A stretch of 55,910 bases of DNA. Source: Gammaproteobacteria bacterium (GTDB taxonomy: Bacteria; Pseudomonadota; Gammaproteobacteria; Steroidobacterales; Steroidobacteraceae). The notes beneath the pieces were generated by a model, which worked only from the letters and a program-made list of their open reading frames with translations, made no database searches and was not told where the DNA came from. The stretch is taken from contig JASHSK010000324.1 in NCBI GenBank assembly GCA_030038755.1, positions 1-55,910 of the forward strand, given 5' to 3'. Below, one piece after another: positions 22,434 through 38,722 of the stretch; positions within the stretch are counted from its first letter, which is position 1, and the number at the start of each line of letters is the position of its first letter. Position numbers and translations under genes: made by a program.

Positions 22434-22459
22434 GCGCATCTCCCAAATGGGATATGCGC
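22434..22459. promoter_or_regulatory. 26-bp dyad operator candidate upstream of the NHL lipoprotein
   Basis: GCGCAT-N-TCCCA-N2-TGGGA-N-ATGCGC, with 11 of 12 arm positions paired. Centre about 120 bp before the lipoprotein start. A second dyad with the same core precedes the outer-membrane gene at 38830 (core 38711-38722), and a weaker copy precedes the third LuxR gene (23161-23186). Confidence 0.65.
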
Positions 22460-22463
22460 GGGC

Positions 22464-23090
22464 TTACTCTGCTTGCGCCATGTGACCCGGCACTGACAGT
22501 AACACCCTGACCAGCTCGCTCTGCCGGCGCGTCCTTGTCTTGCGAAAGACGGACTTGATCTGGCCGCGCAGAGTACCCGGGGTAACGCCACGTTCGCCGG
22601 CGATCTGGGCGATGGATTGGCCTTGCAGCAGGGCGTTGGCAATCTGCGCTTCCGCGGCGGTCAGGCCGTACAGGGCCGTCAGAGCGTGTGCCGGCACTTG
22701 CCCCGTGTGCTTGGGGTCTCCGACCAGTACCAGAGCCTGTGCCGCGCGGCGGCCGCCTTCGCCACTGAGGGGCAGCACTACCAACTGCAGCAGGTACTTA
22801 CCGGTCCGCCGTGGGACGCCGAGGACGCCGCCGGCGCTGGCATGGGTTCCGTGACGCGCCGCTGCTGCCGAGGCCATCAGCCCCCGGAGTTTCCAGTGGA
22901 CGTATGGATCCGCGGCGCACAGACGCCCCTGGCGCACCAAAAGGCCGTCCTGATGATCCAGCAGTACGCCTGCGGCGCGGTTCCAATGCACGAGCCGACC
23001 CGTGCCGCGGACGATGAGCGCAGCGGCTGCCATGGCGTCCAACGCCGCCTCTGCGCGCTGTGCGCGCGCCGCGGTAGTCACCGCCCCCAT
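22464..23090 (-). CDS. LuxR-type transcriptional regulator (short; third of three)
   Basis: 208 residues from the ATG at 23090: a PAS-like domain (RAEAALDAMAAAALIVRGTG onward) and a C-terminal LuxR HTH (LTAAEAQIANALLQGQSIAQIAGERGVTPGTLRGQIKSVFRKT). The C-terminus resembles that of the 23233-24363 protein (RVFRKT / AVFRKT, LxRLLxALSG-type end). An in-frame ATG at 23192 would add 34 residues whose codons include the dyad at 23161-23186; the shorter start is preferred because the PAS-like region then starts directly. It follows its neighbour on the same strand and may share its transcript. Confidence 0.78.
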   Translation of the reverse strand: MGAVTTAARAQRAEAALDAMAAAALIVRGTGRLVHWNRAAGVLLDHQDGLLVRQGRLCAADPYVHWKLRGLMASAAAARHGTHASAGGVLGVPRRTGKYLLQLVVLPLSGEGGRRAAQALVLVGDPKHTGQVPAHALTALYGLTAAEAQIANALLQGQSIAQIAGERGVTPGTLRGQIKSVFRKTRTRRQSELVRVLLSVPGHMAQAE

Positions 23091-23160
23091 CTGACCGCGC
23101 CTCGACACTGCTCGTCGCCAGCTCTCATGGCCGACGAGGCTGACGCTGATCGGGGGGAAG

Positions 23161-23186
23161 GCGCATCTCCCAAACGGGAGACGCCG
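23161..23186. promoter_or_regulatory. Dyad operator candidate upstream of the third LuxR gene
   Basis: GCGCATC-TCCC-AAAC-GGGA-GACGCC, a relative of the 26-bp dyad at 22434-22459 with 8 of 11 arm positions paired. Lies 71-96 bp before the ATG at 23090 and also 47 bp past the stop of the upstream LuxR gene. Confidence 0.5.
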
Positions 23187-23232
23187 GGCCATTTGTGCTC
23201 GAGCCTGCCGCCCGTCGAGGGTGATGGGGGCC

Positions 23233-24363
23233 TTACTCTCCGCTCAGGGCATGCAGCAGGCGCTGCAGCTCGATTTGCCGTCCGGCGCCGGTCTTGCGAA
23301 ATACCGCCTTGAGCTGCATGCGGACGGTGCCGATAGACACCTCATTAATCTGGGCGGTCGCGGCCAGGGGATGCCCCGCATACAGCTGCAATGCCAGACG
23401 GGCCTCGGCGGGACTGAGGCCATAGCAGGCGCGCAGCAGCGCCTCGGATGGCGGCGACGGGCAACTCGCGACACGCAGCAATACCAGAGCCGCCGCGCGG
23501 CGTGCCTCACCCGCCTCGCTCAAGGCGCCGGGTGCAGGCAGCGGCTGAATTGACAGCCGCAGCGGTCCACCGTGTCGGCGGGAGATCAGGCAGCTGCCGC
23601 CGCCGTCGACCGCGCGGCCGCGGCCCGTCTGGATCGCCGCGCTGATGAGCCCCTGCAAACGACTGAGCTCGGCGGCGCACGGCGCGGCGAATCGACCGCC
23701 CCGCAGGCGCAGGCCGTCCGCGCCGCCCAGGATCGCTTCGGCCGCCCGATTGACGAATACGCTCCTGCCGGCCACGTCCAAGAGAACGATGCCCACAGAC
23801 AGGGCCTGCAGCGCCGCCTGATGATTGCTGAGCTGTGCCGTCAGGCTACGCAGCTCCTGTCGTGTACGCAGCGCGGCACGCAGGTGCGGCACGAGCAGAC
23901 GGAAGAACTCCAAAGAGTTGTCCGGGGGCGGGTCGCCCTTGCAGCTTCGGTACAGACTGATGTGCTCGATGAGATCCGGCTGCTTGACGGTGGCCACTGC
24001 GCCGAGCAGGGCCGTGTCGAACTTGACCATCAAGTCTTCATAGAACTCGGTGCGCAACAGGTTCGCCGTGGGACAGAGCTCCTCGCCCGGGGCGATCGCG
24101 CCTTCGGGCTTGGTCAGAAAGCGCGGGAGGAAGGGGTCGAACCTGCCGTAGTACTGTGCGTAGTCGGCCGTCAGCGCCGGATCGACGCCGACCGAGATGC
24201 TATAGCCGTGGCGTGCATTCCGCAGATCCTGATAGAGGATACCCGCCGAAGGGATGCCGAGCACGTCGACGAGCTCCGTGAGAAACCGCTCCCAAAGTGG
24301 CTGCTCGGCGGGCGCCGAATACAAGGTCTGCAGCAATCGCGAGAGATCCTCAAGGCTCGGCAT
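23233..24363 (-). CDS. LuxR-type transcriptional regulator (second of three)
   Basis: 376 residues: N-terminal sensory region (about 1-165), a middle PAS-like segment (SVGIVLLDVAGRSVFVNRAAEAILGGADGLRL, about 190-250) and the C-terminal LuxR HTH (GLSPAEARLALQLYAGHPLAATAQINEVSIGTVRMQLKAVFRKTGA). No autoinducer-domain motif is recognised. The element at 24491-24532 lies 128 bp upstream on the same strand. With the other two regulators it brackets the NHL lipoprotein/OMP unit, whose promoter dyad suggests regulation by one of them. Confidence 0.85.
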   Translation of the reverse strand: MPSLEDLSRLLQTLYSAPAEQPLWERFLTELVDVLGIPSAGILYQDLRNARHGYSISVGVDPALTADYAQYYGRFDPFLPRFLTKPEGAIAPGEELCPTANLLRTEFYEDLMVKFDTALLGAVATVKQPDLIEHISLYRSCKGDPPPDNSLEFFRLLVPHLRAALRTRQELRSLTAQLSNHQAALQALSVGIVLLDVAGRSVFVNRAAEAILGGADGLRLRGGRFAAPCAAELSRLQGLISAAIQTGRGRAVDGGGSCLISRRHGGPLRLSIQPLPAPGALSEAGEARRAAALVLLRVASCPSPPSEALLRACYGLSPAEARLALQLYAGHPLAATAQINEVSIGTVRMQLKAVFRKTGAGRQIELQRLLHALSGE

Positions 24364-24652
24364 ATCGGGGCAGAGCGCAGCAGGTCAACACGGGCCCACG
24401 CATCAGCCGGGCGCGACATTGCTTCGTCACGGGAGACACTCATGCAATCCCCCGGCCATCCTTCTGCGCGAGGGACATCATGTCCGTTAGTTGTTTGTGA
24501 CCACCCTAGCCGATCGGATGTTTCACTTTCAAGTTCACAGCCCGATCAATTGACCCGTTTTGGGGCATGTCGATGCTTCTCGAGGCATCCTTGATCAATC
24601 ATTGGAAAAGTTGATGAATCTTTATAAAGGCTCCCTGCGCCGGCGTGCAGCA
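24364..24652. other. 289-bp intergenic region, holds the shared LuxR element
   Basis: No gene seen. Contains the shared element at 24491-24532 and an AT-richer stretch around 24540-24640 between the LuxR and GFA genes. Both flanking genes are on the minus strand. Confidence 0.6.
24491..24532 (-). promoter_or_regulatory. Element shared by two LuxR genes (copy 2)
   Basis: On the minus strand TTGAAAGTGA-N5-CCGATC-N6-GGT-N5-CAAACAA, identical in blocks and spacing to 16713-16754. TTGAAA with TAGGGT at an 18-bp spacing again gives a plausible promoter. It is 128 bp from the LuxR start at 24363. Confidence 0.65.
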
Positions 24653-25078
24653 CTATTCCGCCACGACGATCCCCGATCCTCCCATCTCCTTCGGGAAGTC
24701 GCGTAATTTCGGCAGCCCATCCTTGATGGACAGCACCTTCTCCCCGTAAGAGACGTGTACCGACGGCCGGAAGTCCAGCGTCGGGAGCATGGCCGCGTAA
24801 ACATCCACCAGTCCCATCGGTGGATGATCCGTGAACAGGTGCCCGCCGCAGCTGCGGCACCACTTGCGAAAGCTGTTCGCCGTCTTGTGATAGGTTCCGA
24901 TCAGGTCCGCGCCGGCGGTGATTCGCAGCGCGTCGGGTTGCCACAGCGTGAAGGCATTGACCGGTCCGGCGGACCAGTGACGACACGACTCACAGTGGCA
25001 GTAACCCATCGCCACCGGCTCACCGCTGACGGAAAATCCGACCGCACCACAGAAACACGTACCCCTGTGCTCGCTCAT
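24653..25078 (-). CDS. GFA-family (glutathione-dependent formaldehyde-activating-like) protein
   Basis: 141 residues with the family's zinc-binding cysteines: GTCFCGAVGF near the N-terminus, GYCHCESCRHWSAG, and RKWCRSCGGHLF. The domain is found in S-hydroxymethyl-glutathione synthase, but most short members have no proven activity, so the enzymatic name is not safe. The gene has no obvious operon partners. Confidence 0.88.
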   Translation of the reverse strand: MSEHRGTCFCGAVGFSVSGEPVAMGYCHCESCRHWSAGPVNAFTLWQPDALRITAGADLIGTYHKTANSFRKWCRSCGGHLFTDHPPMGLVDVYAAMLPTLDFRPSVHVSYGEKVLSIKDGLPKLRDFPKEMGGSGIVVAE

Positions 25079-25139
25079 GACTGCCTCCCTGGCCTGACTT
25101 GCGGAGAATCTGATTCGAGCCGACCCGCTGATGATGAAT

Positions 25140-26210
25140 CTATTTGTCCATCAGCGCCACGCTCTTGATCTGAACGTACACCCCCATGCCTTCCGTGATG
25201 CCGAGCTGCACCGCCGAGCGCCGGGTGACGCGCGCGAGCAGCACATCTGCGCCAACCTTTACCCGCACGAGCATCTGCGCCGGGTCGACCTCGGTGCGCA
25301 GGTCGAGTACCGTGCCCGGCAGAACGTTGCTGATGCTGCTTTGCTGCGACGGTTGCAGCGCCAGGCTCACGTCGCGCGCGTCGATGCGCACGCGCACGCG
25401 ATGCCCCGGCGGCAGGGCCTGCAACGAGAGCGCGAGCCGGCCTCCCGACACCAGCACGTAGCTGAGGTGGTACTGCGGGTCGTGCTCGGCGACCGCCCCC
25501 TCGAGCACGCTGCCCGCCTGGTCGAAGCCGCCCAGCGGCAGGTCGGCGCGCGTCAGCAGTGACTGCAGCGGGCCGGCCGCGCGCACGCGCCCCGCCTCCA
25601 GCAGCACCAGCTCGTCCGCGAGCCGCATCACCTCGCCGAGTGCGTGACTGACGTACAGGATCGGAATGTCGAGTGCATCGCGCAGCCGTTCCAGGCGCGG
25701 CAGGATCTCGTCCTTGCTGATTTCGTCGAGGCTCGAGAGCGGCTCGTCCATCAGCAGCAGCCGCGGACTCGCGAGCAGCGCGCGAGCGATCGCTACGCGC
25801 TGTCGTTGGCCGCCGGATAGCTGCGGCGGGCGGTGCGAGAGCAGCGTCTCCAGACCCAGCAGGCTCACGGCTTCGTCGAGCGAAACGCGCCGTGCCTCGG
25901 GCGCTCGCCGCCGCAGCCCGTATTCCAGATTGCCGCGCACGTCGTAATGGGGGAACAGGCTCGGCTCCTGGAAGACGTAGCCGATCGAGCGACGATGCGC
26001 CGGCACGAACTGCGTCGCGTCCTGCCAGACGGTGTCGTTGAACACGACGCGCGCCGGGAGCCGCTCGAGGCCCGCGATACAGCGCAGCAGCGTCGTCTTG
26101 CCCGTGCCCGAGCGACCAAACAGCGCCGTGACCCCGCGCGCCGGCCAGCGGCCGTCCACCTGCAGCGAGAAGCTGCCGCGCGTCAGGCTCAGGCTCAGTT
26201 CCAACGCCAT
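25140..26210 (-). CDS. modC: Molybdate ABC transporter ATP-binding protein ModC
   Basis: Cytoplasmic ATPase of molybdate uptake, 356 residues. Walker A is GRSGTGKTTLL, the Q-loop lies in YVFQEPSLFPHYDV, the signature is QLSGGQRQRVAIARAL, Walker B is LLLMDEPLSSLD, and the switch His is in YVSHALGEV. A C-terminal TOBE-type domain (about 285-356, ISNVLPGTVLDLRTEVDPAQMLVRVKVGADVLLARVTRRSA) binds oxyanion as in ModC. It overlaps modB by 16 bp. Confidence 0.94.
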   Translation of the reverse strand: MALELSLSLTRGSFSLQVDGRWPARGVTALFGRSGTGKTTLLRCIAGLERLPARVVFNDTVWQDATQFVPAHRRSIGYVFQEPSLFPHYDVRGNLEYGLRRRAPEARRVSLDEAVSLLGLETLLSHRPPQLSGGQRQRVAIARALLASPRLLLMDEPLSSLDEISKDEILPRLERLRDALDIPILYVSHALGEVMRLADELVLLEAGRVRAAGPLQSLLTRADLPLGGFDQAGSVLEGAVAEHDPQYHLSYVLVSGGRLALSLQALPPGHRVRVRIDARDVSLALQPSQQSSISNVLPGTVLDLRTEVDPAQMLVRVKVGADVLLARVTRRSAVQLGITEGMGVYVQIKSVALMDK

Positions 26211-26887
26211 GGCTGCACGCGCGCTCCGCGCCCCCGCGTCGATGCATACACCGTCAGCAGCAGCAGGAACGCGATCACCACCAGCGTGGCCGACAGCCGG
26301 TTGGCGGCGCCGTACTCGAGCGTCTCCGCGTGGTTGAAGATCGCGATCGAGGCCGTCTGCGTACGTCCGGGTATATTGCCGCCGATCATCAGCACCACGC
26401 CGAACTCACCGAGGGTGTGCGCGAACGCGAGCACCGCGGCCGTCAGAAAGCCGCGCGAGGACAGCGGCAGCACCACCGAGACGAAGCGGTCCCACGGCGA
26501 GGCGCTCAGCGTCGCGGCCACCTCCAGCACCCGGGTTCCGAGCCCCTCGAACGCATCGCGCAGCGGCTGCACGACAAACGGCAGTGAGTAGATCATCGAT
26601 CCGATCACCAGGCCCGTGAAGCTGAACGCCGGAGAGGCGACGCCCACCAGCGTCAGCGCCCGCCCGAGCGGTCCCTGCGGGCCGAGAAATACCAGCAGAT
26701 AGAACCCCAGCACCGTGGGCGGTAGCACCAGCGGCAGGGAGACCACGGCATTCACCGGTGCCCGCCAGCGCGAGCTGCCGGTGCCGAGCCACCAGGCCAG
26801 CGGAGTGCACAGCAGGAGCAGCAGCGCCGTGGTCACGGCCGCCAGCCGCACCGAGATCGCAAGCGCGATCAGGTCATCGCCGCCCAT
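26195..26887 (-). CDS. modB: Molybdate ABC transporter permease ModB
   Basis: 230 residues of inner-membrane permease with about five helices. The EAA-type loop is visible as EGLGTRVLEVAATLSASPWDRFVSVVLPLSSRGFL. It starts 3 bp after the modA stop and overlaps modC by 16 bp, fixing the operon order modA-modB-modC. A short length is normal for ModB. Confidence 0.93.
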   Translation of the reverse strand: MGGDDLIALAISVRLAAVTTALLLLLCTPLAWWLGTGSSRWRAPVNAVVSLPLVLPPTVLGFYLLVFLGPQGPLGRALTLVGVASPAFSFTGLVIGSMIYSLPFVVQPLRDAFEGLGTRVLEVAATLSASPWDRFVSVVLPLSSRGFLTAAVLAFAHTLGEFGVVLMIGGNIPGRTQTASIAIFNHAETLEYGAANRLSATLVVIAFLLLLTVYASTRGRGARVQPWRWN

Positions 26888-26890
26888 CCG

Positions 26891-27733
26891 CTAAGGTGCG
26901 CCCGGGCGGTATCCGGCCTCGCGGATGATCTGTGCCGCCGCGCTCGAGGTCCGTAGCCAGTGCTCGAACGCCTGGGCCGCCGCTGGCTGGGTCGTGCGCG
27001 CCAGGATCAGCGCATCCTGCGCGATCGGCTGATAGTCGGATCGCGGGGGCAGCCAGTACGACCCGCTGATGCGGCCGCCCGGACCCGTGACCTGTGAGAG
27101 CGCCACGAATGCCATATCGGCGTTGCCGGAGGCCGCGAATTGCCAGGTCTGGGTGATGTCCGCGCCGATCACGAGTTTCTTTTCCTGGTTGAGAGGCTCC
27201 CACTGTCCCAGCGCGGTCAGGACCTGCTGGGCCGCCGCCCCGTACGGGGCATTGCGCGGATTGGCCATGGCGATGAAATGAAAGGCTCCGCGCCGGATGA
27301 TCTGGCCGCGCCGGTCGACCACGCCGGGGCGCGGGCTCCACAGCACCAGCGTGCCCACGGCGTAGGTGAAGCGGCTGCCCGCCACGGCCAGTCCCTGCGA
27401 GTCCAGCAGCTGCGGTCGCTGTGTATCCGCGGAGAAGAACAGGTCAAACGGAGCTCCCTGGCGTATCTGCGCGTACAGCTGCCCCGTCGAACCGCTGCTC
27501 AGCGACAGCGTGTCGCCGCTCACCCGGCGGTAGCGCTCCGCAAGTTTCTGCAGCGTACCGAGGAAGTTGGCCGCCACCGCGACATGCAGTTGCGCGGCCA
27601 TGGCGCGCGGCGCGGCCACGGCCGCGCCCAGCGCCAGCAGCAGCGCCAGCGCGCAGCATCGCGCCGCGGATCCGATACGCGGCCATGCGGTGGGTCTGTG
27701 CGAGGATCTATGCCCGGTATTCGTTCGCATCAT
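26891..27733 (-). CDS. modA: Molybdate-binding periplasmic protein ModA
   Basis: 280 residues with a signal peptide that ends AMAA near residue 47 and a mature start of QLHVAVAANFLGTLQKLAERY. Family blocks are LSSGSTGQLYAQIRQGAPFDLFFSADTQRP and YGAAAQQVLTALG, with the ligand Ser in SSGSTGQ and in the NPRNAPYG segment. Two adjacent ATGs (27733, 27730) are equally good starts. The long basic N-region before the hydrophobic core is unusual but tolerated. Confidence 0.92.
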   Translation of the reverse strand: MMRTNTGHRSSHRPTAWPRIGSAARCCALALLLALGAAVAAPRAMAAQLHVAVAANFLGTLQKLAERYRRVSGDTLSLSSGSTGQLYAQIRQGAPFDLFFSADTQRPQLLDSQGLAVAGSRFTYAVGTLVLWSPRPGVVDRRGQIIRRGAFHFIAMANPRNAPYGAAAQQVLTALGQWEPLNQEKKLVIGADITQTWQFAASGNADMAFVALSQVTGPGGRISGSYWLPPRSDYQPIAQDALILARTTQPAAAQAFEHWLRTSSAAAQIIREAGYRPGAP

Positions 27734-27766
27734 TGTCGCCCTGTAGCAGACGCTGGCCGCGGCACC

Positions 27767-28579
27767 TCAGTCGTTGACCGCGAGGATCACGTGCGATGCC
27801 TTGATCAATGCGCAGCAGGCCGCTCCCGCGGCCAGCTGCAACTCCTTCTGGGCCTCGCTGGTCACGATGGCCACCAGACGGCGGTTCCCGGGCAGCTGCA
27901 GGACCACCTCGCAATTGACGCTGCCGGGGACGATCTCGGTCACGGTGCCGCACAGTCGGTTGCGGGCGCTCGTGCGCACGGCTACGTCGGGTGACAGCAG
28001 CACCAGGCTGGCCTTGATCAGCGCGGTCGCCTCACGGCCGCGCTTGAGGTGCAGCTCCTCCACCGCCTCGTTGGTGACGTTGGCGAAGATCGTAAGGCCC
28101 TCGCCGAGATCGAGAATGACGTCGGCGTTGACGGCACCCTTGACGACCGACGTGACGGTACCGCGATATTGATTGCGAGCGCTGGTTTTCATGGTGATGC
28201 TCCTGAGCAGCTCATTGAGGCTGTCGAGGTCGTGCATCTGTGCCTGTAAGTGTGTCAGCAGGCGCTGGTAACCGGACTCCAGCAGCCGGTAGAGCCGCAC
28301 GATCTCGCGACCGTGCTCGGTCAGACGGCTCCCGCCTCCGCCCGGGCCGCCGGACGCGCGGATCAGCAGCGGCCGCTCCGCCAGGTTGTTCATCGCGTCC
28401 ACGGCGTCCCACGCGGCCTTGTAGCTGAGGTTCACATCCCTGGCCGCCTGCGTGATCGATCCGAGCCGGTCGATTGCCTCCAGCAGCCGGATGCGATTGC
28501 CGCCGAGGTAGCGATGACCTCTGCGCGACAGCTCGAGGCTGCCGGCGAGCTCCAGCACGCCGCCCTTTGCCTTTGACAT
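27767..28579 (-). CDS. modE: Molybdate-responsive regulator ModE
   Basis: 270 residues. The N-terminal winged HTH (LGGNRIRLLEAIDRLGSITQAARDVNLSYKAAWDAVDAMN) matches ModE, and two C-terminal TOBE/Mop domains (SARNQYRGTVTSVVKGAVNADVIL and SARNRLCGTVTEIVPGSVNCEVVL) bind molybdate. It represses mod genes when molybdate is plentiful. Start ATG 28579, with an in-frame GTG one codon before. The ModE-box-like dyad at 28602-28625 starts 23 bp upstream, so autoregulation of modEABC is likely. Confidence 0.93.
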   Translation of the reverse strand: MSKAKGGVLELAGSLELSRRGHRYLGGNRIRLLEAIDRLGSITQAARDVNLSYKAAWDAVDAMNNLAERPLLIRASGGPGGGGSRLTEHGREIVRLYRLLESGYQRLLTHLQAQMHDLDSLNELLRSITMKTSARNQYRGTVTSVVKGAVNADVILDLGEGLTIFANVTNEAVEELHLKRGREATALIKASLVLLSPDVAVRTSARNRLCGTVTEIVPGSVNCEVVLQLPGNRRLVAIVTSEAQKELQLAAGAACCALIKASHVILAVND

Positions 28580-28601
28580 CACGGCCCCGATGCGCCTCGC
28601 G

Positions 28602-28625
28602 CGATATATACCGAAGGATATGGCG
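28602..28625 (-). promoter_or_regulatory. ModE-box-like dyad upstream of modE
   Basis: CG-N2-ATAT-N8-ATAT-N2-CG (28602-28625), matching the general layout of known ModE sites (dyad of CG/ATAT half-sites). Lies 23 bp upstream of modE, in the divergent 219-bp gap toward the superoxide dismutase gene. Confidence 0.6.
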
Positions 28626-28641
28626 AGCGGTGTCGCGGCGC

Positions 28642-28671
28642 CACTCCCGAGGGGGGCACTCCCGAGGGGGG
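28642..28671. repeat. 15-bp perfect tandem duplication
   Basis: CACTCCCGAGGGGGG at 28642-28656 is repeated exactly at 28657-28671, in the gap between modE and the dismutase gene. Confidence 0.92.
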
Positions 28672-28798
28672 AAGCGCCGTCCGTCCTGTCAGGGCTCCGC
28701 GCCGCGCCCGATAGATGCGCTAAGATGCCGGCCTCGGGGCCGAAGCACGTCGCTGCCGCACTCCCTGATACCCCCAGCTACCCTGATGGAGGTCGACC

Positions 28799-29407
28799 AT
28801 GAGCTTCGCATTACCGTCGCTGCCCTATTCCACCAACGCCCTGGCGGGCCGCGGCATGTCCCAGGAGACGTTGGAGCTGCATCATGGCAAGCATCACCAG
28901 GCCTACGTCACCGCTCTGAATGGCCTCGTGGAGAAGAACCCTGCCCTGCAGGGCAAGTCGCTCGAAGAGATCATCCGGCTGTCGCACAACAATGCGGAGC
29001 TTACGCCGGTGTTCAACAACGCCGGTCAGCACTGGAATCACAGCCGCTTCTGGGAGTCGCTGTCGGCGCAGGGCGGCGGCATCCCCGGCTCGCTCGAGAA
29101 GCGCCTGGTCGCCGACTTCGGCAGTGTCGACAAGTTCAAGGAGACCTTCAAGAACGCGGCCGCCACGCAGTTCGGGTCGGGCTGGGCGTGGCTGGTCCTC
29201 GGCAACGAGGGCAAGCTCAAGGTCATCAAGAGCGGCAACGCCAGCTCACCGCTCGCGACCGGCGAGGGCAAGGTCATCCTGGTCCTCGACGTATGGGAAC
29301 ACGCCTACTACGTCGACTTCCGTAACCGCCGAGCGGACTTCATCGACAACTTCCTCGCCAAGGTCGCCAACTACGACGACGCCGCGGAGAAGCTGCAGCG
29401 GGCCTGA
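28799..29407 (+). CDS. sodB: Superoxide dismutase, Fe-type (or cambialistic)
   Basis: 202 residues. The metal ligands line up as His28 (LELHHGKHH), His81 (QHWNH), Asp164 and His168 (DVWEHAYY). Gln77 in AGQHWNH sits where iron enzymes carry their second-sphere glutamine, while manganese enzymes carry Gly-His there; this favours Fe. GGAGG at good spacing precedes ATG 28799. The next gene starts on the base after its stop. Confidence 0.94.
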   Translation: MSFALPSLPYSTNALAGRGMSQETLELHHGKHHQAYVTALNGLVEKNPALQGKSLEEIIRLSHNNAELTPVFNNAGQHWNHSRFWESLSAQGGGIPGSLEKRLVADFGSVDKFKETFKNAAATQFGSGWAWLVLGNEGKLKVIKSGNASSPLATGEGKVILVLDVWEHAYYVDFRNRRADFIDNFLAKVANYDDAAEKLQRA

Positions 29408-30421
29408 ATGGCCGACGTCTCGATCGAGGACATTCGCGCGGCGCAGGAGCGCCTCGCCGGGCGCGTGCGGCGTACCCCGCTGCTGACCGACGAGCTGCTC
29501 GACGCCCGACATGGCGCGCAGCTGTACTTCAAGTGCGAAAACCTGCAGCCGGTCGGCGCCTTCAAGGTACGCGGTGCGACCAATGCGGTGTTCGCTCTCT
29601 CGGACGGCGAGCTGCGCGCCGGCGTGGTGACGCACTCCTCGGGTAACCACGGCGCCGCCGTGGCCCGCGCCGCCCGGCTGCGGGGGGTAGGGGCGCGAAT
29701 CGTCATGCCCGAGGATACGTCCGCGGCCAAGATCGAGGCGGTGCGGGCCTACGGCGGGCAGATCGTGCCCTGCGCGCCGACGCTGGCGGCGCGCGAGGCC
29801 GAGGCTGCGCGCCTCGTGGCCGAGACCGGCGCCGCGTTCATCCATCCGTACGATGATCCACGCGTCATCGCCGGGCAGGGCACGGTCGCGCTGGAGCTGC
29901 TCGAGGACCTGCCGCAGCTCGACTGCATCCTGTGTCCCGTGGGTGGTGGCGGGCTCACGAGCGGCATCGCCGTGGCGGTGAAGGCGCTGCGCCCGCAGGT
30001 GCGGGTGATCGCCGTCGAGCCCGCGGCGGCAGATGATGCGTGCCGCGGCTTTCACGCCGCGCCGGGGACGGCCGCGACGGCCCCGGTGCCCGCGGTGCCT
30101 GCGATTGCCCCGGTGCCCGCAGCAGGCGATGTGCCGGCGCCTCGCACCACCGTGGCCGATGGCCTGCGCGCCACGGTCAGCGAGCGCACGCTCGGCCTGA
30201 TGCGCCGCTACGTCGATGACGTCGTCACTGTGAGCGAGGAGGGCATCGTCAGCGCCATGCGGGTGCTGTGGAAGCATCTGCGCACGATCGTCGAAGCCTC
30301 GAGCTCCGTCCCGTACGCCGCACTGCTCGAGCAGCGGCTGCAGCTCGCCGGCCAGCGAGTGGCAATCGTGATCACGGGTGGCAACGTGGATCTGGACAGG
30401 CTCCCCTGGTCGCGCAACTGA
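29408..30421 (+). CDS. PLP-dependent threonine/serine dehydratase or serine racemase family
   Basis: 337 residues, fold-type II PLP enzyme. The Schiff-base Lys is near residue 53 (GAFKVRGA), the substrate loop is SSGNHG, and the phosphate loop is PVGGGGL. Catabolic dehydratase/racemase is more likely than biosynthetic IlvA because no C-terminal ACT domain is present. An Ala/Pro-rich stretch (about residues 217-247, TAATAPVPAVPAIAPVPAAGDVPAP) interrupts the region that normally leads straight to TVADGL. Its start follows the dismutase stop with no gap, implying coupling. Confidence 0.85.
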   Translation: MADVSIEDIRAAQERLAGRVRRTPLLTDELLDARHGAQLYFKCENLQPVGAFKVRGATNAVFALSDGELRAGVVTHSSGNHGAAVARAARLRGVGARIVMPEDTSAAKIEAVRAYGGQIVPCAPTLAAREAEAARLVAETGAAFIHPYDDPRVIAGQGTVALELLEDLPQLDCILCPVGGGGLTSGIAVAVKALRPQVRVIAVEPAAADDACRGFHAAPGTAATAPVPAVPAIAPVPAAGDVPAPRTTVADGLRATVSERTLGLMRRYVDDVVTVSEEGIVSAMRVLWKHLRTIVEASSSVPYAALLEQRLQLAGQRVAIVITGGNVDLDRLPWSRN

Positions 30422-30428
30422 TCAGCGT

Positions 30429-31474: not shown

Positions 31475-31580
31475 TGCGGCGTAAGCCTACGGACGCGCCC
31501 TCCCCGGCGCCAGCGCAGGTATGGCATAGTTCGTGGCCCGCCGTATCCACCGTTTCTCCAAGCAATCAGGGGCGACGTCA

Positions 31581-34247
31581 ATGAAGCGCTGGACTGTCTG
31601 TCTGATCGCGACTTTGTCGGTGCTGCCGTGGCCGCTGGCGGCCGCCGCGGCTGCCTCCCCCCAGGGCGTGCTGCGCGCGACGCTGCCCAACGGCCTGCGC
31701 GTGATCCTGGTGCGCAACACGCTCGCGCCCGTCGTCTCGACCTCGGTCAACTACCTGGTCGGCTCCGACGAAGCGCCCGCCGGTTTTCCCGGCATGGCGC
31801 ATGCCCAGGAACACATGATGTTCCGTGGCACGCCCGGTCTGACGGCCGATCAGCTGGCCGACATCGGGGCGGTGATGGGCGGGGATTTCAACGCCGACAC
31901 GCGTGAGAGCATCACCCAGTATCTGTTCACCGTGCCCTCCGACGATCTGGACGTGGCGCTGCATATCGAAGCGTTGCGCATGCGCGGAGTGGACGACAGT
32001 GCTCAGGGCTGGGACCAGGAGCGCGGCGCCATCGAACAGGAGGTGGCACGCGACATGTCGGATCCGGAATACGTGCTGTACACGAAGCTGCGTGCCTACG
32101 AGTACGCCGGTACGCCCTACGCACACGACGCCCTCGGTACGCGCCCTTCCTTCGATAACACCACCGCGCAGATGTTGCAGCAGTTTCACGCGCGCTGGTA
32201 CGCACCCAACAACGCGGTATTCGTCGTCGTCGGGGACCTGGAGTTGCAGCCCACGCTGGCGAAGATTCGCGCGCTGTTCGGGGACATCCCGCGCAAGACG
32301 CTGCCGGAGCGGCCCACCGTCGAGCTGCGTCCGATCACGGCCACGAGCTTCTCGGTCCCCACCGATCAGCCCAACGGCTTCCTGATGGTCGCGGTTCGCA
32401 CCCCCGGCGCTCGCAGCCCGGACTTCCCGGCGCTGGAGGTGCTCTCCGACGTGCTCAGCAGCCGGCGCTTCGCCCTCTACGACCTGGTCGCGCAGGGCGA
32501 GGCCCTGGACGCCGGTTTCTCGCTCGATCCGCTACCGCGCGCCGGGCTCGCTTTCGCCACGGTGGCGTTTGCCGCCGGTTCCGACCACGCGGCGCTCATG
32601 AAGGAAACGCAGGACATCCTCGCGAAGGTCGCGCGCGACGGCGTGCCGGCCGATCTGGTACAGGCCGCCAAGATCCAGGAGGAGCGTGAGGCGGGCTTCG
32701 AGCGCAACTCCATCGAAGGGCTGGCTTCCATCTGGTCCGACGCCGTGACGCTCTACGGCCTGCGCTCGCCCGATGAGGACCTGCAGCGCATCGAGCGCGT
32801 GACCGTCGCCGACGTCAATCGCGTCGCTCGAGAGTACCTGGTGCTCGACCGCGCCGCCTCGGCGACGCTGCTGCCACAGGGCTCGGGCCGACCGCTGGTC
32901 GCCAGCGGTGGCTTCGGCGGGCAGGAGAGCATCTCGTTGGGCGAGGGAACGCCGACCGCACTGCCCGACTGGGCGCAGCAGGCGGTTGCGCGTCTCGTCG
33001 TGCCGCCGCTGACGACGCATCCGATCATCAGCAAACTGCCGAACGGCCTGACGCTGATGGTTCAGCCCGAGGACGTCAGCAATACGGTCAGCGTGATCGG
33101 TCACATCCGCAACCGCCCCGACACCGAGCAGCCAAAGGGTCAGGAGGGCGTCTCCGATATGCTGGATGCGCTGCTGCCCTTCGGTACCGAGCGGCTCGAT
33201 CGGCTGGCCTATCAGAGCGCCCTCGATGCCATCGGTGCGCAGGAGCAGGCTGGTGCCGACTTCACCGTGCAGGCGCTTGCTCCCTACTTTGACCGCGCCG
33301 TCGAACTGCTGGCCGACAATGAGCTGCACCCGGCACTGCCAGAGCAGGTCATGCGGTTGTTGCAGCCGCAGCTCATCGCCCAGGTCGGCGCACGCAATAC
33401 CAGTCCCGGCTATCTTGCGCAGCGCTCGATGGTGAGCGCGCTGTTCCCGTCCACCGACCCGACCTTGCGTCAGGCCACGCCGCAGAGCGTGCGTGACCTG
33501 ACGCTGCAGGACGTGCGCGATTACTACCAGCGTGTATATCGCCCCGACCTCACGACCATCGTCGTGATCGGCAACGTCACGCCCGAGGCTGCCCGCGCCA
33601 CCATCGAGAAGTACTTCGGTGCCTGGAGCGCCAGCGGTCCAAAACCCGATACCGACCTGCCGGTCGCCCCGCCCAACATGCCCGCCCAGGTCAACGTGCC
33701 GGATGCCAGCCGGGTGCAGGATTCCGTCGAGCTCTCGGAGGATCTGTCACTGACGCGCGCCGATCCGGATTACTACGCGCTCGAGCTCGGCAACGCCGTG
33801 CTCGGTGGCGGCTTCTATTCCACGCGCCTGTCCATCCAGATGCGCAAGAACACCGGTCTGGTCTATACGGTCGGCTCGCAGCTGCAGGCCGGCCGCACGC
33901 GCGCGGTGTACAGCGTCTTCTATGCCTGCGACCCCCAGAACGTCGGCCGCGCCGCAGCCATCGCGACGCAGCTGTTGACGGAGATGCAGCAGGCGCCACC
34001 GCGGCCCGACGAGCTGGCGCGTGTCAAGGCGCTGCTGCTGCGGCAGATCCCGCTGGGCGAGGGGAGCATCGACGCGATCGCCGAGGGTTTTCTCACGCGC
34101 CGCGAGCTGAACCTGCCACCCGACGAGCCCATCATTGCCGCGCGCCATTACATCGAGCTGACGGGCGCGGACGTGCAGGCGGCTTTCCGCAAGTGGATCC
34201 GCCCCAACGACATGGTGCGCGTCGTGCGCGGGCCGCCGCCGCACTGA
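31581..34247 (+). CDS. Zinc metallopeptidase, M16 family, two-domain
   Basis: 888 residues with a signal peptide (about 1-24). The inverted zinc motif HAQEH is at residues 74-78 in the N-terminal M16 domain, with a distal Glu in the EQEVARD segment. An inactive second M16 pair follows from about residue 475 (LPNGLTLMVQPEDVSNTVSVIGH) and lacks HxxEH. ATG 31581 has AGGGG upstream and starts the signal peptide. Periplasmic or outer-membrane processing of peptides or envelope proteins is likely. Confidence 0.9.
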   Translation: MKRWTVCLIATLSVLPWPLAAAAAASPQGVLRATLPNGLRVILVRNTLAPVVSTSVNYLVGSDEAPAGFPGMAHAQEHMMFRGTPGLTADQLADIGAVMGGDFNADTRESITQYLFTVPSDDLDVALHIEALRMRGVDDSAQGWDQERGAIEQEVARDMSDPEYVLYTKLRAYEYAGTPYAHDALGTRPSFDNTTAQMLQQFHARWYAPNNAVFVVVGDLELQPTLAKIRALFGDIPRKTLPERPTVELRPITATSFSVPTDQPNGFLMVAVRTPGARSPDFPALEVLSDVLSSRRFALYDLVAQGEALDAGFSLDPLPRAGLAFATVAFAAGSDHAALMKETQDILAKVARDGVPADLVQAAKIQEEREAGFERNSIEGLASIWSDAVTLYGLRSPDEDLQRIERVTVADVNRVAREYLVLDRAASATLLPQGSGRPLVASGGFGGQESISLGEGTPTALPDWAQQAVARLVVPPLTTHPIISKLPNGLTLMVQPEDVSNTVSVIGHIRNRPDTEQPKGQEGVSDMLDALLPFGTERLDRLAYQSALDAIGAQEQAGADFTVQALAPYFDRAVELLADNELHPALPEQVMRLLQPQLIAQVGARNTSPGYLAQRSMVSALFPSTDPTLRQATPQSVRDLTLQDVRDYYQRVYRPDLTTIVVIGNVTPEAARATIEKYFGAWSASGPKPDTDLPVAPPNMPAQVNVPDASRVQDSVELSEDLSLTRADPDYYALELGNAVLGGGFYSTRLSIQMRKNTGLVYTVGSQLQAGRTRAVYSVFYACDPQNVGRAAAIATQLLTEMQQAPPRPDELARVKALLLRQIPLGEGSIDAIAEGFLTRRELNLPPDEPIIAARHYIELTGADVQAAFRKWIRPNDMVRVVRGPPPH

Positions 34248-34380
34248 ACCGAAGCTCTCGGGAGGTGCAGCGCTGCGGGGAGTACCCGCAGGTGCATCGC
34301 CGGACTCCATCGCCGGGAGTCGGCAGTCTGAGATTCTTGCGTGGCTTGTATGGGATTCCAGATATCCTTATTATGGAGGC

Positions 34381-34611
34381 ATGAAAACCACGGTAGATAT
34401 TCCTGAAAAGGCGCTGGCCGATGCCATGCGCTTTGCCGGCGCCAAGACCAAGCGCGAGGCGATCGTGACAGCCATTGAGGACTACAATCGCCGCAAGCGC
34501 ATGGCGGAGCTGATCAGATACTCGGGCACCTCCGAGACGCTCCTGTCCAATGAGGCGATTGAGGATCTGGAAAAAAAACGCACCCGCCGGCTCGGAAAGC
34601 CGGGTAAGTGA
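34381..34611 (+). CDS. Antitoxin, VapB-type (ribbon-helix-helix)
   Basis: 76 residues: MKTTVDIPEKALADAMRFAGAKTKREAIVTAIEDY is a VapB-like ribbon-helix-helix that binds DNA, and the C-terminal tail wraps the toxin. GGAGG at 34375-34379 sits directly before ATG 34381. It overlaps the toxin start by 4 bp (GTGA). A run of eight A near 34570 falls inside the frame. Confidence 0.88.
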   Translation: MKTTVDIPEKALADAMRFAGAKTKREAIVTAIEDYNRRKRMAELIRYSGTSETLLSNEAIEDLEKKRTRRLGKPGK

Positions 34612-34976
34612 AACTGATCGACACCTCCTGCTGGGTGCATCAGATTCGGGCGCGGGGCGACCCGGCCGTCCGCTCGCGGGTGGAGGGCTCACTCACGGCA
34701 GGTACTGCGGCTTGGTGTGCGCAGGTACGGCTGGAGCTCTGGGCGGGTGCGCGCTCGGATCAGGATCGAAAGCTACTGCGCGACTATGAACGGGTCTTGC
34801 CGGATCTTGCCATTACGGATCAGGTCTGGTCCTTGGCATGCGATTTGGGTGATCGCGCCCGTCGGGTCGGGATCAGCGCCGGTGCGGGTGATTTGCTCAT
34901 CGCGGCATGCGCCCGTGTTCACGGTGCGGAGTTGGAATATGCCGACGCCGATTTCGATCGGCTGAACTCGCTCTGA
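34608..34976 (+). CDS. Toxin, VapC-type PIN-domain ribonuclease
   Basis: 122 residues with acidic metal-binding residues in the PIN pattern: LIDTSCW (Asp5), LELWAGARSD (Glu near 43), GAGDLLIAACAR (Asp near 93) and YADADFDRL (Asp near 115). Magnesium-dependent RNase of a type II toxin-antitoxin module with the preceding antitoxin. GTG start 34608 is set by the GTGA overlap. Confidence 0.9.
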   Translation: MKLIDTSCWVHQIRARGDPAVRSRVEGSLTAGTAAWCAQVRLELWAGARSDQDRKLLRDYERVLPDLAITDQVWSLACDLGDRARRVGISAGAGDLLIAACARVHGAELEYADADFDRLNSL

Positions 34977-35116
34977 CGCAGCGGGCTGGCCGCGCAGGGA
35001 CCGCCACCCGAAATGGCGCTGCGGCCATCACGGCCTCGCGCACGATGTCCTCAGACGCTCGTCATAGCAGTCGACGGTGATCCGGCTGTGCTCGGGCCAT
35101 ATCGGTGGTTCATCCA

Positions 35117-35154
35117 CGCGTCAAGGATTAATCCTTGACGCGATCCTTGACGCG
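35117..35154. promoter_or_regulatory. Palindromic operator of the second toxin-antitoxin pair
   Basis: A perfect 26-bp palindrome (35117-35142; half CGCGTCAAGGATT) is followed by a third copy of ATCCTTGACGCG (35143-35154). TTGACG (35135-35140) with TAACCT (35158-35163), 17 bp apart, makes a promoter that overlaps the operator, consistent with autorepression. Confidence 0.75.
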
Positions 35155-35171
35155 AGGTAACCTGCATTCTC

Positions 35172-35450
35172 ATGAGCAAGGTTACGGGCAAATTTCAGGT
35201 CACCCTGCCCAAGCGGCTGGTGACGGCCTACGGCATCAAAGTCGGGGACGAAGTCGAGTTTTCCGCCGCTGGGGACCGCATTGCGCTGCGGCCGCCGGGG
35301 CACAAGCCCGTGGATCGCGCCCGCCGGTTGCGCGAGTTTGATCGTGCCACCGAGCGCCAACGCAACCGCGAACGCACGCGGTCGCTCGAGGTGGCGAGCG
35401 AACGTGGCTGGACCCGCGAAGAGCTCTACGTGCGTGGCCGGTCTGGTTGA
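35172..35450 (+). CDS. Antitoxin, AbrB/SpoVT-type
   Basis: 92 residues with a swapped-hairpin N-terminus (MSKVTGKFQVTLPKRLVTAYGIKVGDEVEFSAAGDRIALRPP) typical of AbrB/MazE-like antitoxins, then a helical, charged toxin-binding tail. No ribosome-binding site is evident and the predicted transcription start lies within a couple of bases of ATG 35172, so the message may be leaderless. The operator palindrome directly upstream fits autoregulation. Confidence 0.85.
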   Translation: MSKVTGKFQVTLPKRLVTAYGIKVGDEVEFSAAGDRIALRPPGHKPVDRARRLREFDRATERQRNRERTRSLEVASERGWTREELYVRGRSG

Positions 35451-35859
35451 TACCAACGTCCTCGTCTACCGCTTCGATCCGCGTTTTCCCGCGAAGCAGG
35501 CGCGCGCAGCGGCCTTGCTGCGCAAGGGCCTCGAGGAAGAATCGCTCGTCATCCCCCATCAGGCACTGATCGAGTTCATCGCGGTCGTCAGCCGGCACAT
35601 CGCTGGCGGCGCGCCGTTGCTACCGCTGGCCGACGCGCGGCGCGAGGCCGAGGAAATGATCGCACAGTTCCCCGTCGCCTATCCCACCGAGGGCACGCTG
35701 CGCACGGCCCTGCGCGGCTCAGCGCTCTATCAGTTGTCCTGGTTCGATGCGCACCTTTGGGCGTATGCGGACGAGTTGGGCCTCGATACGCTCTGGAGCG
35801 AGGACTTCGAGCACGGCCGCACCTACGGGCGCGTGACCGTGATCGACCCTTTTCGCTGA
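35434..35859 (+). CDS. Toxin, PIN-domain ribonuclease (VapC-like)
   Basis: 141 residues starting at GTG 35434, overlapping the antitoxin by 17 bp. Acidic PIN residues: GLVDTNVLVYRFD (Asp near 5), ALIEFIAVVSR (Glu), and SWFDAHLWAYADELGLDTLWSEDFEHG in the C-terminal part. Forms a type II module with the AbrB-type antitoxin. It converges on the MoeB-like gene. Confidence 0.87.
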   Translation: MAGLVDTNVLVYRFDPRFPAKQARAAALLRKGLEEESLVIPHQALIEFIAVVSRHIAGGAPLLPLADARREAEEMIAQFPVAYPTEGTLRTALRGSALYQLSWFDAHLWAYADELGLDTLWSEDFEHGRTYGRVTVIDPFR

Positions 35860-35890
35860 TGGCGGGGCGGGGATCCCAGGGACACCGTCG

Positions 35891-37099
35891 TTACAGCGGC
35901 AGCGACGGCTCGACCGCCGCCTGCCATGCGAGCAGCCCGCCTTCCAGCTGCAGCGGTGTGGCAATCCCGGCGCGTCGCGCCAGGGCGCAGGCTTTGAGAC
36001 TGCGAACGCCGCTCCGGCAGATGAACACCACCGCTGCATCCGGCGCGAGTGCCAGTTCGCCCAGCCCCTGCTGCTCGATGCGCGCGAGCGGCACATTCTG
36101 CGCGTGCGGCAGATGGCCGCGCGCGAATTCCTCCGGATCGCGCACATCGATGAGCCGCAGCCGCGGCTCGGCCGCGCGGGCGTCGCCCGAGCCGGTGTGA
36201 GCGACGTCCTGCGACAGCCGGGCCAGCCGCTGCGCCAACTCGCTCGCCGAGATGCGCGGCACGCGCTGCTGCTCCTCCGCCGTGCAGAAGCCCGGCGGAT
36301 CGTGCGGCTCATGGATGCTGGGATGATCGCCGCACACGGCGCACTCGGGGCGGCGCGCGATGCGAAACTCATCGAAGCGCAGGTTCAACGCGTCATACAC
36401 CAGCACGCGACCCAGCAACGGCTCGCCGATGCCCAGCAGCAGCTTGATCGCCTCGGTGGCCTGCACCGCGCCGAGCACTCCGGGCAGTACGCCGAGCACG
36501 CCCGCCTGCGCACAGTTGGGTAGCACGCCCTCGGTCAGCGCGGGAAACAGGCAGCGATAACACGGCCCACGTCCGGGCGCGTAGCTCATCGCCTGCCCCT
36601 CGAAGCGGTGGATCGCAGCGCTCACCAGCAGCTTGCCGTACAGCACGCAGGCGTCGTTGACGAGGTAACGCGTACCGATACGATCGCTGCCGTCGACGAT
36701 GAGCTCGTAGCCGTCGAACAGGGCGCGCACGTTCGCCGCGCACAGCTCGGTGGCGTGCGCGACGACGTTCAGCGTGGGGTTCAGCGCCCGCAGCCGCTCG
36801 CGTGCCCGCTCGGCCTTCGGTGCGCCGACATCGCCACTGGTGAACAACACCTGCCTCTGCAGGTTCGACTCGTCCACGCGATCGAAATCCACCAGCCCCA
36901 GCGTGCCGACGCCGGCAGCCGCGAGGTACAGCGCAGCCGGCGATCCGAGTCCGCCGGCGCCGATCACGAGCACCCGCGCCGCCTTCAGCCGCTCCTGGCC
37001 CGCACTGCCGATCTCGGGCAGCAGCAGGTGGCGGCTGTAGCGCTCGCGCTCCGCCGTCGTCAGCGGAGTGATGGGTGCCGATGTGGGTAGAGCTGACAT
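35891..37099 (-). CDS. moeB: MoeB/ThiF-type E1-like adenylyltransferase with rhodanese domain
   Basis: 402 residues. The N-terminal E1-like domain has the nucleotide loop VLVIGAGGLGSPAALYLAAAGVG, and the catalytic Cys lies near CYRCLFP/NCAQAGVLGVLPG; a CxxC pair (CAVC) binds zinc. The C-terminal rhodanese domain carries CRSGVRS near residue 362. This two-domain form activates the C-terminal Gly-Gly of a small sulfur carrier and transfers sulfur. The MoaD-like gene 64 bp upstream on the same strand is the obvious partner. Start ATG 37099. Confidence 0.9.
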   Translation of the reverse strand: MSALPTSAPITPLTTAERERYSRHLLLPEIGSAGQERLKAARVLVIGAGGLGSPAALYLAAAGVGTLGLVDFDRVDESNLQRQVLFTSGDVGAPKAERARERLRALNPTLNVVAHATELCAANVRALFDGYELIVDGSDRIGTRYLVNDACVLYGKLLVSAAIHRFEGQAMSYAPGRGPCYRCLFPALTEGVLPNCAQAGVLGVLPGVLGAVQATEAIKLLLGIGEPLLGRVLVYDALNLRFDEFRIARRPECAVCGDHPSIHEPHDPPGFCTAEEQQRVPRISASELAQRLARLSQDVAHTGSGDARAAEPRLRLIDVRDPEEFARGHLPHAQNVPLARIEQQGLGELALAPDAAVVFICRSGVRSLKACALARRAGIATPLQLEGGLLAWQAAVEPSLPL

Positions 37100-37163
37100 G
37101 TGACCGTGTCGGTGAAGTCGGGCCGCCAGTGCATGGCGGCTGGTGCAGCCGTGGGCAGGCGGC

Positions 37164-37430
37164 TCAGCCGCCGGTGAGCGCGCAGATCAAGTGTACCGAA
37201 TCCCGCGGTGCGACCGGTTGCGCCAGGTCGTGCGCCTCGCGCGCCGCCACGAAGATACGGATATGCTGGCGAATGCGCTGCTGCTCGTCGAGCATGCGAA
37301 AGCGCATCCCCGGAAAGCGCCGCTCCAGGTCGGCCAGGACCTCCGCCAGCGTGCCGCCCTCGGCGCTGACCACGGCGGCCCCGTGCGTGTAATCGCGTAA
37401 GGGACTGGCGACGTGTACCGAGCAGGTCAT
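37164..37430 (-). CDS. MoaD/ThiS-family ubiquitin-like sulfur carrier
   Basis: 88 residues with a beta-grasp pattern and the terminal Gly-Gly (ICALTGG) that is adenylated and thiocarboxylated. It lacks hallmarks that would separate molybdopterin synthase small subunit from a dedicated carrier. It lies between the BNR gene and the MoeB-rhodanese gene on one strand. The molybdopterin synthase large subunit (MoaE) is not in the window. Confidence 0.85.
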   Translation of the reverse strand: MTCSVHVASPLRDYTHGAAVVSAEGGTLAEVLADLERRFPGMRFRMLDEQQRIRQHIRIFVAAREAHDLAQPVAPRDSVHLICALTGG

Positions 37431-37481
37431 GGCAGGTCCCGGATCTCTCTTGCGGTGCCCAGTCGCGACTGGTGGCGCCGG

Positions 37482-38600
37482 TCAGTGCAGCGCGGTGGTC
37501 ACCGAGTAGATCTCCGGCAGTCGCTGCGCAATGCAGCGCCAGCTTTCCCCGGCGTCGCGGCTCGCCCAGATTTCCCCGCCGGTGGTGCCGAAATACAGGC
37601 CCGGCCGCGCCTCCTGGTCCGCGCACATGGCCTGTCGCAGCACGGTGAACCAGGCGTCCTCGCGCGGCAGCCCGCGGTCGCGGCGCTGCCAGGTACGTCC
37701 AGCGTTACGCGTCTCGTAGACGGCCGGACGGCCGGCGATCGAGGTGCGCGGCCACACACGGGTCCCGTCCATCGGCAGCACCCAGGCGGTGTCCGGCTCA
37801 TGCGGATGCACCACGATCGGAAAGCCCACATCGCCGATGCGGGTGGGCATGGCCCGTCCAATGCGCTGCCAGCGCCGCGCGGGTCGGTCGAGCCGATAAA
37901 TGCCGCAGTGGTTCTGGTGGTAGAGCCGGTCGGGCTGACGAGGATGCAGCACCACGCAGTGCGGGTCGTGTCCAAAGGGGGCATTGGGATCGGGCAGGAA
38001 GTCCGCCTCAACGCCTTCGTTCAGCGGACTCCAATCACGTCCGCCGTCCGTCGATTCAAAGATTCCCCCGACCGAGATGGCCAGATACAGATGCCGTGGG
38101 TCGCGCGGGTCGACCAGGATGGAATGCAGCAGCTCTCCGCCGGGAGTGCCGCGACCCGGCGCCCACTGCGAAAGCATCGGGTGGTCATTGAAGCCCGAGA
38201 CGCTCGCCCAGTGCTGTCCCTCGTCCTCGGAGCGGAACAGGCCGGCCGGAGACGTCCCCGCGTACCAGACACCGGGTTCGTCCACGTGACCCGGGGTGAG
38301 CCAGAACACACGCTCCACGGCGCGGCCGGTTTTCCCTGGAGCGGCCTTGGAAAAGGCCGGCGGGCCGGGCACTTCGCCCCAGCGCCGCCCGCGATCGACC
38401 GAGCGATACACCGTCGGTCCAAGGTGCCCGGTCCTGGCCGCCATCAGCAGTGTCTTGGGCGCGCGTGGATCCTGCACCACGTGATGGATCACATGGCCGA
38501 GGAACTGTGGCCCGGACAGCCGCCATCCACGGCGTTGGCGGTCGGCGCTCAACACGAAGGCGCCCTTGCGCGTACCGATCCATAGCGTCACGGTAGACAC
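37482..38600 (-). CDS. BNR/Asp-box repeat protein (sialidase/VPS10-like beta-propeller)
   Basis: 372 residues with about five Asp-box motifs of the SxDxGxxW type (YRSVDRGRRW, FRSEDEGQHW, FESTDGGRDW, YETRNAGRTW, WASRDAGESW), which build a beta-propeller. No signal peptide, so cytoplasmic. The start is a GTG (38600) with no clear ribosome-binding site. Glycosidase activity is not implied, because the propeller fold also serves as a scaffold. It is the first gene of the BNR-MoaD-MoeB strand. Confidence 0.85.
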   Translation of the reverse strand: MSTVTLWIGTRKGAFVLSADRQRRGWRLSGPQFLGHVIHHVVQDPRAPKTLLMAARTGHLGPTVYRSVDRGRRWGEVPGPPAFSKAAPGKTGRAVERVFWLTPGHVDEPGVWYAGTSPAGLFRSEDEGQHWASVSGFNDHPMLSQWAPGRGTPGGELLHSILVDPRDPRHLYLAISVGGIFESTDGGRDWSPLNEGVEADFLPDPNAPFGHDPHCVVLHPRQPDRLYHQNHCGIYRLDRPARRWQRIGRAMPTRIGDVGFPIVVHPHEPDTAWVLPMDGTRVWPRTSIAGRPAVYETRNAGRTWQRRDRGLPREDAWFTVLRQAMCADQEARPGLYFGTTGGEIWASRDAGESWRCIAQRLPEIYSVTTALH

Positions 38601-38710
38601 ACGTCACAGCATTGCCGCCGCCGTGCACGCTGTCAATCACGTCCGGGCAATCGGTCCCCTCACGGAGTACTTCCGTGCCGGCGCCGCCTGCTCAAAAGGT
38701 GACGTACACC

Positions 38711-38722
38711 TCCCAACTGGGA
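38711..38722. promoter_or_regulatory. Dyad core upstream of the outer-membrane gene
   Basis: TCCCA-AC-TGGGA with flanking ATATGCGG, same core as the dyads at 22434-22459 and 23161-23186. 108 bp before the start at 38830. Confidence 0.55.

Follow-up and report, generated by a model that had tools for sequence, protein, structure and literature searches.

Recurrent dyads beside LuxR-family genes as candidate class II activator operators of surface-protein genes in a Steroidobacteraceae genome

The window, that is, the whole 55,910-nucleotide stretch of Steroidobacteraceae DNA that was analysed, carries three genes whose products are, as judged from their GerE helix-turn-helix, LuxR-family regulators. 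LuxR0 (16799-17926, plus strand) is a 375-aa protein with a C-terminal GerE helix-turn-helix and the recognition helix GTVRAQTK, assigned from Pfam GerE and its homologues; its GerE match (E 2.5e-4) lies under the cut-off when it is searched as a protein and over it in the genome search, and the Pfam scan gave no PAS match. LuxR1 (22464-23090, minus strand) is a short regulator of 208 aa in which Pfam finds a weak PAS match and a GerE helix-turn-helix with the helix GTLRGQIK; here the GerE match (E about 2e-4) is slightly under the curated cut-off and again over it in the genome search, and the N-terminal part present in LuxR0 and LuxR2 is missing. LuxR2 (23233-24363, minus strand; 376 aa, helix GTVRMQLK), recognized by alignment and recovered by LuxR searches, has a weak PAS match below the cut-off and no Pfam GerE hit, yet it can be aligned across the whole GerE domain. 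At E 0.05, Pfam scans of the three proteins yielded only matches to GerE and PAS, along with further weak ones to helix-turn-helix or ligand domains, with no autoinducer-binding domain, and no receiver domain was matched in any of them. The helix-turn-helix of LuxR0 relatives matches those of DesR, VraR, NarL, GerE and RcsB.

Three dyads, referred to as sites 1 to 3, accompany these genes. The order on the minus strand is LuxR2, site 2, LuxR1, site 1, an NHL-repeat lipoprotein gene and a gene for a protein with a signal-peptide-like start; LuxR0 faces them on the plus strand. The lipoprotein gene (19105-22326, minus strand; Pfam TEN_NHL and NHL over the cut-off), the presumed target of site 1, has a start codon with a ribosome-site match, and its product carries the lipobox LAAC. 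Downstream of it, the translation of 17932-19080 (minus strand) gives a 382-aa protein with a signal-peptide-like start and no Pfam or NCBIfam family, which is perhaps an outer-membrane protein. The presumed target of site 3 (38830-39624, plus strand) encodes a 264-aa protein resembling an outer-membrane barrel, with a signal-peptide-like start and a C-terminal YRF; it matched no Pfam family, and its CarO-porin match was weak and far below the cut-off. Signal peptides, lipoboxes and the YRF end, as well as the tssA and methyltransferase labels used below, were assigned by eye.

Site 1 (22434-22459; GCGCATCTCCCAAATGGGATATGCGC) is a 26-bp dyad that lies 4 bp past the LuxR1 stop and 107 bp ahead of the lipoprotein start, with 11 of its 13 base pairs symmetric. 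Site 2 (23161-23186; GCGCATCTCCCAAACGGGAGACGCCG) is weaker (8/13 symmetric pairs) and is situated between LuxR2 and LuxR1, 70 bp ahead of the LuxR1 start, and site 3 (38704-38729; GTACACCTCCCAACTGGGATATGCGG; 7/13 symmetric pairs) lies 100 bp ahead of the outer-membrane-like gene; both are identical to site 1 at 21 of 26 positions. Their general form is GCAT-N2-CCCA-N2-TGGG-N2-ATGC, in which TGGG forms the core of either half and 2 bp separate the two opposed halves. A preliminary description of this DNA had placed three dyads here, the first nearly perfect and all about 70-120 bp upstream of starts, and both points hold with the symmetry and the distances from dyad end to start codon given above. 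It had also put site 2 before the third LuxR gene; site 2 does precede a LuxR gene, but this is the short middle one of the three.

We next compared the dyads with chance expectation. Sites 2 and 3 each differ from site 1 at 5 positions, whereas the best counterparts in 60 Markov-simulated windows had 7 to 10 mismatches. The assembly of the organism's own genome (3,743,627 bases, 86% complete) contains two copies of the core TCCCA-N2-TGGGA, both within the window, compared with none for the reversed control, and a 25-mer with at most 3 mismatches occurs at three (two in the window and one at C59:5848), again with none for the control. A looser pattern of 16 fixed bases with at most 3 mismatches gave eight places compared with one for the control: the three window sites, the C59 site and four weak matches (C225, C54, C132 and C188), all four within predicted genes, that of C188 being weakly predicted, and none followed by a -10 at the spacing described below. 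The random occurrence in coding regions that would have spoken against the preliminary description is thus absent among the strong matches and confined to weak ones. The C59 site (L042:5847-5872) is a good dyad in a gap between predicted genes and lies 332 bp ahead of a gene that looks like tssA of type VI secretion; a good -10 at the expected spacing was not found there. The three window dyads are not a product of chance.

Each window dyad is followed by a hexamer resembling a -10 element at an almost constant distance. After site 1, CAGAGT (22410-22415, minus strand) starts at the 19th base and is the second-best match within 45 nt; after site 2, the weak CAGCCT (23137-23142, minus strand; score -0.4) also starts at the 19th base and is the weakest of those hexamers that rank best at this offset; and after site 3, TAGAAT (38747-38752, plus strand; score 9.2) starts at the 18th base. 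With sites from other genomes included, we examined 13 oriented sites, of which 12 are distinct, the G052 site repeating that of G034. In 11 of the 13, a -10-like hexamer started at base 18 or 19 when the 45 nt past the dyad were searched: it was the best match in ten and the second best in one, site 1, while the C59 site had none and the L150 site a poor one. Averaged over ten sites, leaving out G052 (the same as G034), C59 and G215b (weak or no -10), the -10 score peaked at the 18/19 offset with 4.1, compared with values from -9.3 to 0.3 at the other offsets among the first 60. By chance, about 3% of positions are expected to score at least 2 at one of two neighbouring offsets, and the 18/19 offset was derived from the same 13 sites that it describes. 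Among nine further dyads, found without reference to the -10 and lying outside the first 13, five (L111, L112, L119, L152 and L181) reached a score of at least 1.5 in one orientation and four (L115, L118, L120 and L182) stayed below it; the chance of reaching 1.5 in either orientation is about 8% (twice 4%). Furthermore, a combined scan for dyad and -10 gave 60 hits in 953 kb of fetched sequence compared with 3 for the reversed control, whose best score was 13.4, in sequence that overlaps itself, is counted on both strands and contains the training sites. The spacing rule is enriched, yet it is not universal. The 14 aligned sites showed high information inside the dyad and low information between dyad and -10. 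The hexamers that follow the dyads are mostly imperfect; a scan for consensus promoters around site 1 found 0 pairs, and shuffled sequences likewise gave 0.0, so that it is little informative. If the hexamer is taken as positions -12 to -7, the dyad would be centred at -42.5 or -43.5.

The distribution of the dyad was then analysed in related genomes. Across 217 genomes of the family, a 21-mer with at most 3 mismatches was found at four places in the own genome and at one place each (1 mismatch) in G009 and G058; hits with 3 mismatches occurred in G223 and G241, and the reversed control gave 2 hits. In 396 genomes of the order, the strict general form was present at ten places in seven genomes compared with 3 control places, while a class-wide scan of 369 genomes with the same strict form returned two places, one of them the own, compared with 1 for the control, so that at this strictness no signal was seen outside the order. 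A match in G041 was dropped because it lies inside a TonB-receptor-like gene. G009, a member of the same genus whose genome is 93% complete, has a near-identical site 84 bp ahead of an outer-membrane-like frame of 85 aa (L039:1700-1980), the start of which resembles the site 3 protein (55% over residues 4-59); this short frame may be a remnant. Homologues of the site 3 protein were found in 24 of the 217 family genomes, own and G009 counted, and in their fetched flanks no dyad scoring at least 10 was present beyond those two genomes. The G058 site lies 86 bp ahead of a gene for a secreted hydrolase of the beta-lactamase family, which is separated by a TonB receptor gene from a LuxR gene whose product matches PAS over the cut-off.

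Similar dyads in other genera lie past LuxR-family genes and ahead of genes for lipoproteins, adhesin-like or other secreted proteins. As in the window, where site 1 follows LuxR1 by 4 bp and site 2 follows LuxR2 by 46 bp, the dyad was located just downstream of genes for LuxR1 relatives, at a distance of 184 bp in G056, 16 bp in G034 and G052, and 103 bp in G008. At the three window sites and nine other loci, a start codon follows 70-189 bp past the dyad, and at most of these twelve loci the target gene begins with a signal-peptide or lipobox-like sequence; in G078 the gene after the dyad appears to encode a methyltransferase and no surface protein. In G034 (L127:5072-6730), Pfam shows a fusion of a LuxR-family protein with an alpha/beta hydrolase domain, and its gene is followed by the dyad and then by a gene with repeated bacterial Ig-like domains, and at L167:7444-8730 a protein with collagen-like repeats and a signal-peptide-like start is encoded behind a LuxR gene and a dyad. 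Palindromes of the type GCAT(or GCGT)CACCCA-N2-TGGGTGA were also observed in another family of the order, four in G316 (L122-L125) and one in G304 (L121); some of them precede genes whose translations start like signal peptides and show a -10 at the spacing described above. No LuxR gene stands alongside them in the stretches read, and they were excluded from the support for LuxR.

Dyads of this kind were also found near some relatives of LuxR0, those in Povalibacter and Steroidobacter among them, which added dyad loci in Steroidobacter agaridevorans (L163), a Lysobacteraceae MAG (L181), Marinimicrobium alkaliphilum (L171) and a Proteobacteria MAG (L175). In 6 of 19 named LuxR0 relatives (L163, L167, L168, L171, L175 and L181), a dyad with a -10 scoring at least 1.5 preceded a gene for a lipoprotein or other secreted protein, with L163 and L171 recovered by the scan that uses the -10 and with L168 and L167 being, by length, the G056 and G008 contigs. 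The L163 dyad precedes a second lipoprotein, and that of L171 is upstream of a lipoprotein gene which itself precedes the LuxR gene. Two relatives (L174 and L179) had a dyad without a fitting target or -10, and the remaining 11 had nothing above threshold nearby. We also scored the surroundings of LuxR relatives from other genomes with a matrix built on four sites alone, the three of the window and the one in G009. A score of at least 16 within 500 bp was reached in 6 of 72 rows compared with 0 of 500 random stretches, and a score of at least 14 in 8 of 72 compared with 2 of 500 (0.4%), where L021 and L023, two of the six, are orthologues sharing the same site and one locus makes up two rows; the other 64 rows scored below 14 and had no clear adjoining site. 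Furthermore, scores of at least 16 were concentrated in proteins whose recognition helix reads T[VL]RxQxK (5 of 16, compared with 1 of 56 others, which has TIRTQIK; Fisher P 0.0016), a helix class defined after the first cases were known. The closest LuxR1 paralogue in the own genome (C79, 51% identical) had no adjoining site.

We consider it probable, at roughly 0.78, that the dyad is a class II activator operator of GerE-type LuxR-family dimers. This reading starts from features that were computed directly: the dyad is repeated and rare, keeps a fixed spacing to the -10, and in some other genera is associated with LuxR genes and with genes for secreted proteins. Against it speak G009, where a near-identical site goes with no detected LuxR gene of this kind, the 64 of 72 rows lacking a clear site, the 11 LuxR0 relatives with nothing above threshold, the C79 paralogue, and the site 3 homologues of other genomes, which have no dyad in their flanks. 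Our confidence was lowered by the result of five in nine for the held-out dyads and by the G078 target. The dyad would cover the place of the -35 element, and a LuxR dimer bound there would be placed to contact RNA polymerase in the manner of a class II activator. Three promoters would be controlled in this manner, those of the NHL-repeat lipoprotein, the short LuxR1 gene and the outer-membrane-like protein, and site 3 would extend this control to an envelope gene at a distance of 16 kb. The simplest account would be that one or more of LuxR0, LuxR1 and LuxR2 activates the three targets; we infer LuxR binding and activation, the identity of the binding protein and the transcription starts from these patterns, and the relatives of LuxR0 point to it as a binder, as position does to LuxR1 and LuxR2. 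The location of site 2 ahead of LuxR1 suggests a feed-forward or autoregulatory loop. The earlier proposal, in which a dimeric regulator controls envelope genes, is largely supported by the rarity of the dyad, its recurrence with LuxR and secreted-protein genes and the fixed -10 spacing; the regulon found in this genome is small, consisting of three promoters in one window and the doubtful C59 site, and one of its targets is a regulator gene.

The same operator could instead serve repression, with a LuxR dimer on the -35 region blocking RNA polymerase until a signal arrives. The dyad does overlap the place of the -35 hexamer, where a repressor would work too, but the -10 hexamers are mostly imperfect, like those of activator-dependent promoters, and we regard repression as unlikely. 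Quite unlikely, in our view, is that an unrelated dimeric regulator encoded elsewhere binds the dyad and that the LuxR genes are bystanders. This would agree with G009, which carries the site although no LuxR of this kind was detected at E 1e-10 and no relative of LuxR1 at E 0.001 (it does encode other GerE proteins), with the G304 and G316 dyads being distant from LuxR genes, and with the reported TspR site TGTCCCAAATGGGACA of Acidithiobacillus caldus, which contains the same 12-bp core (PMC6335251). However, several other genera have dyads next to LuxR genes, in most cases immediately past the gene, and the dyads track a recognition-helix class. TspR is a sigma-54 activator, and sigma-54 enhancer sites usually lie further upstream; the likeness raised the possibility that the dyad is such an enhancer site, which we judged unlikely given that the dyad here abuts a -10, and the same observation argues against a regulator of the sigma-54 type.

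It is very improbable that the dyad acts at the RNA level, as a hairpin or as a terminator for the LuxR genes. An RNA stem is possible, and site 1 lies 4 bp past the LuxR1 stop, but the three sites folded no better than shuffled sequences (z -0.61, -0.93 and -0.34), the single candidate from a terminator scan of 22300-22560 is at 22327 on the plus strand and not at the dyad, and neither site 3 nor the G058 site is directly behind a LuxR gene. An intrinsic terminator was rejected on the negative scan at site 1 and the shuffle-level folds. Finally, a chance resemblance or a small mobile repeat is scarcely credible: there are only a handful of copies per genome, but simulated windows never came nearer than 7 mismatches, and the aligned sites carry high information in the dyad and little in the bases leading up to the -10.

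The LuxR regulator, its operator and the adjoining surface-protein gene may form a plug-in module whose first two parts are conserved and whose surface protein varies; we see the balance on this point as even. The surface proteins at such loci comprise the NHL lipoprotein, a lipoprotein with a weak carboxypeptidase-regulatory-like match, an Ig-like adhesin and a collagen-like protein. To our knowledge, orphan LuxR-family proteins are common and mostly lack known sites. If the module exists, a single recognition code would make it possible to predict from sequence what many orphan LuxR proteins of Steroidobacteraceae and related bacteria control. Such a defined operator, with its fixed position in the promoter and surface-protein targets close by, renders this LuxR group directly testable with reporters and offers a way to seek LuxR targets in other genomes.

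Among the matches listed in a literature search with little coverage of subscription journals, there was no description of this operator or of the LuxR/surface-protein arrangement; its parts and the system as a whole are of known kinds. The lux box is likewise an imperfect inverted repeat, reported at 42.5 nt upstream of the start, a class II position, compared with -42.5 or -43.5 here (PMC7585371). In contrast to LuxR and the lux box, the half-site differs, the window proteins lack an autoinducer-binding domain in Pfam scans, and the dyads presumably serve surface-protein genes and a LuxR gene. NarL, GerE and RcsB share with the window proteins, by sequence, the same GerE helix-turn-helix DNA-binding domain, while, unlike NarL, the window LuxR proteins have no matched receiver domain. 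The NarL half-site TACYYMT and the GerE half-site TRGGY share with the window dyads a core of CCCA or TGGG, and in the 7-2-7 arrangement of NarL the centre between the cores is 2 bp longer than in these dyads. The 12-base core of site 1 turned up in one paper, within the site of TspR: this protein of Acidithiobacillus caldus is reported to bind TGTCCCAAATGGGACA, which has 12 bases, TCCCAAATGGGA, in common with site 1 (PMC6335251). That sequence is described as the upstream activator sequence of a two-component regulator (PMC6335251), whereas the window dyads abut a -10-like hexamer and lie near LuxR genes.
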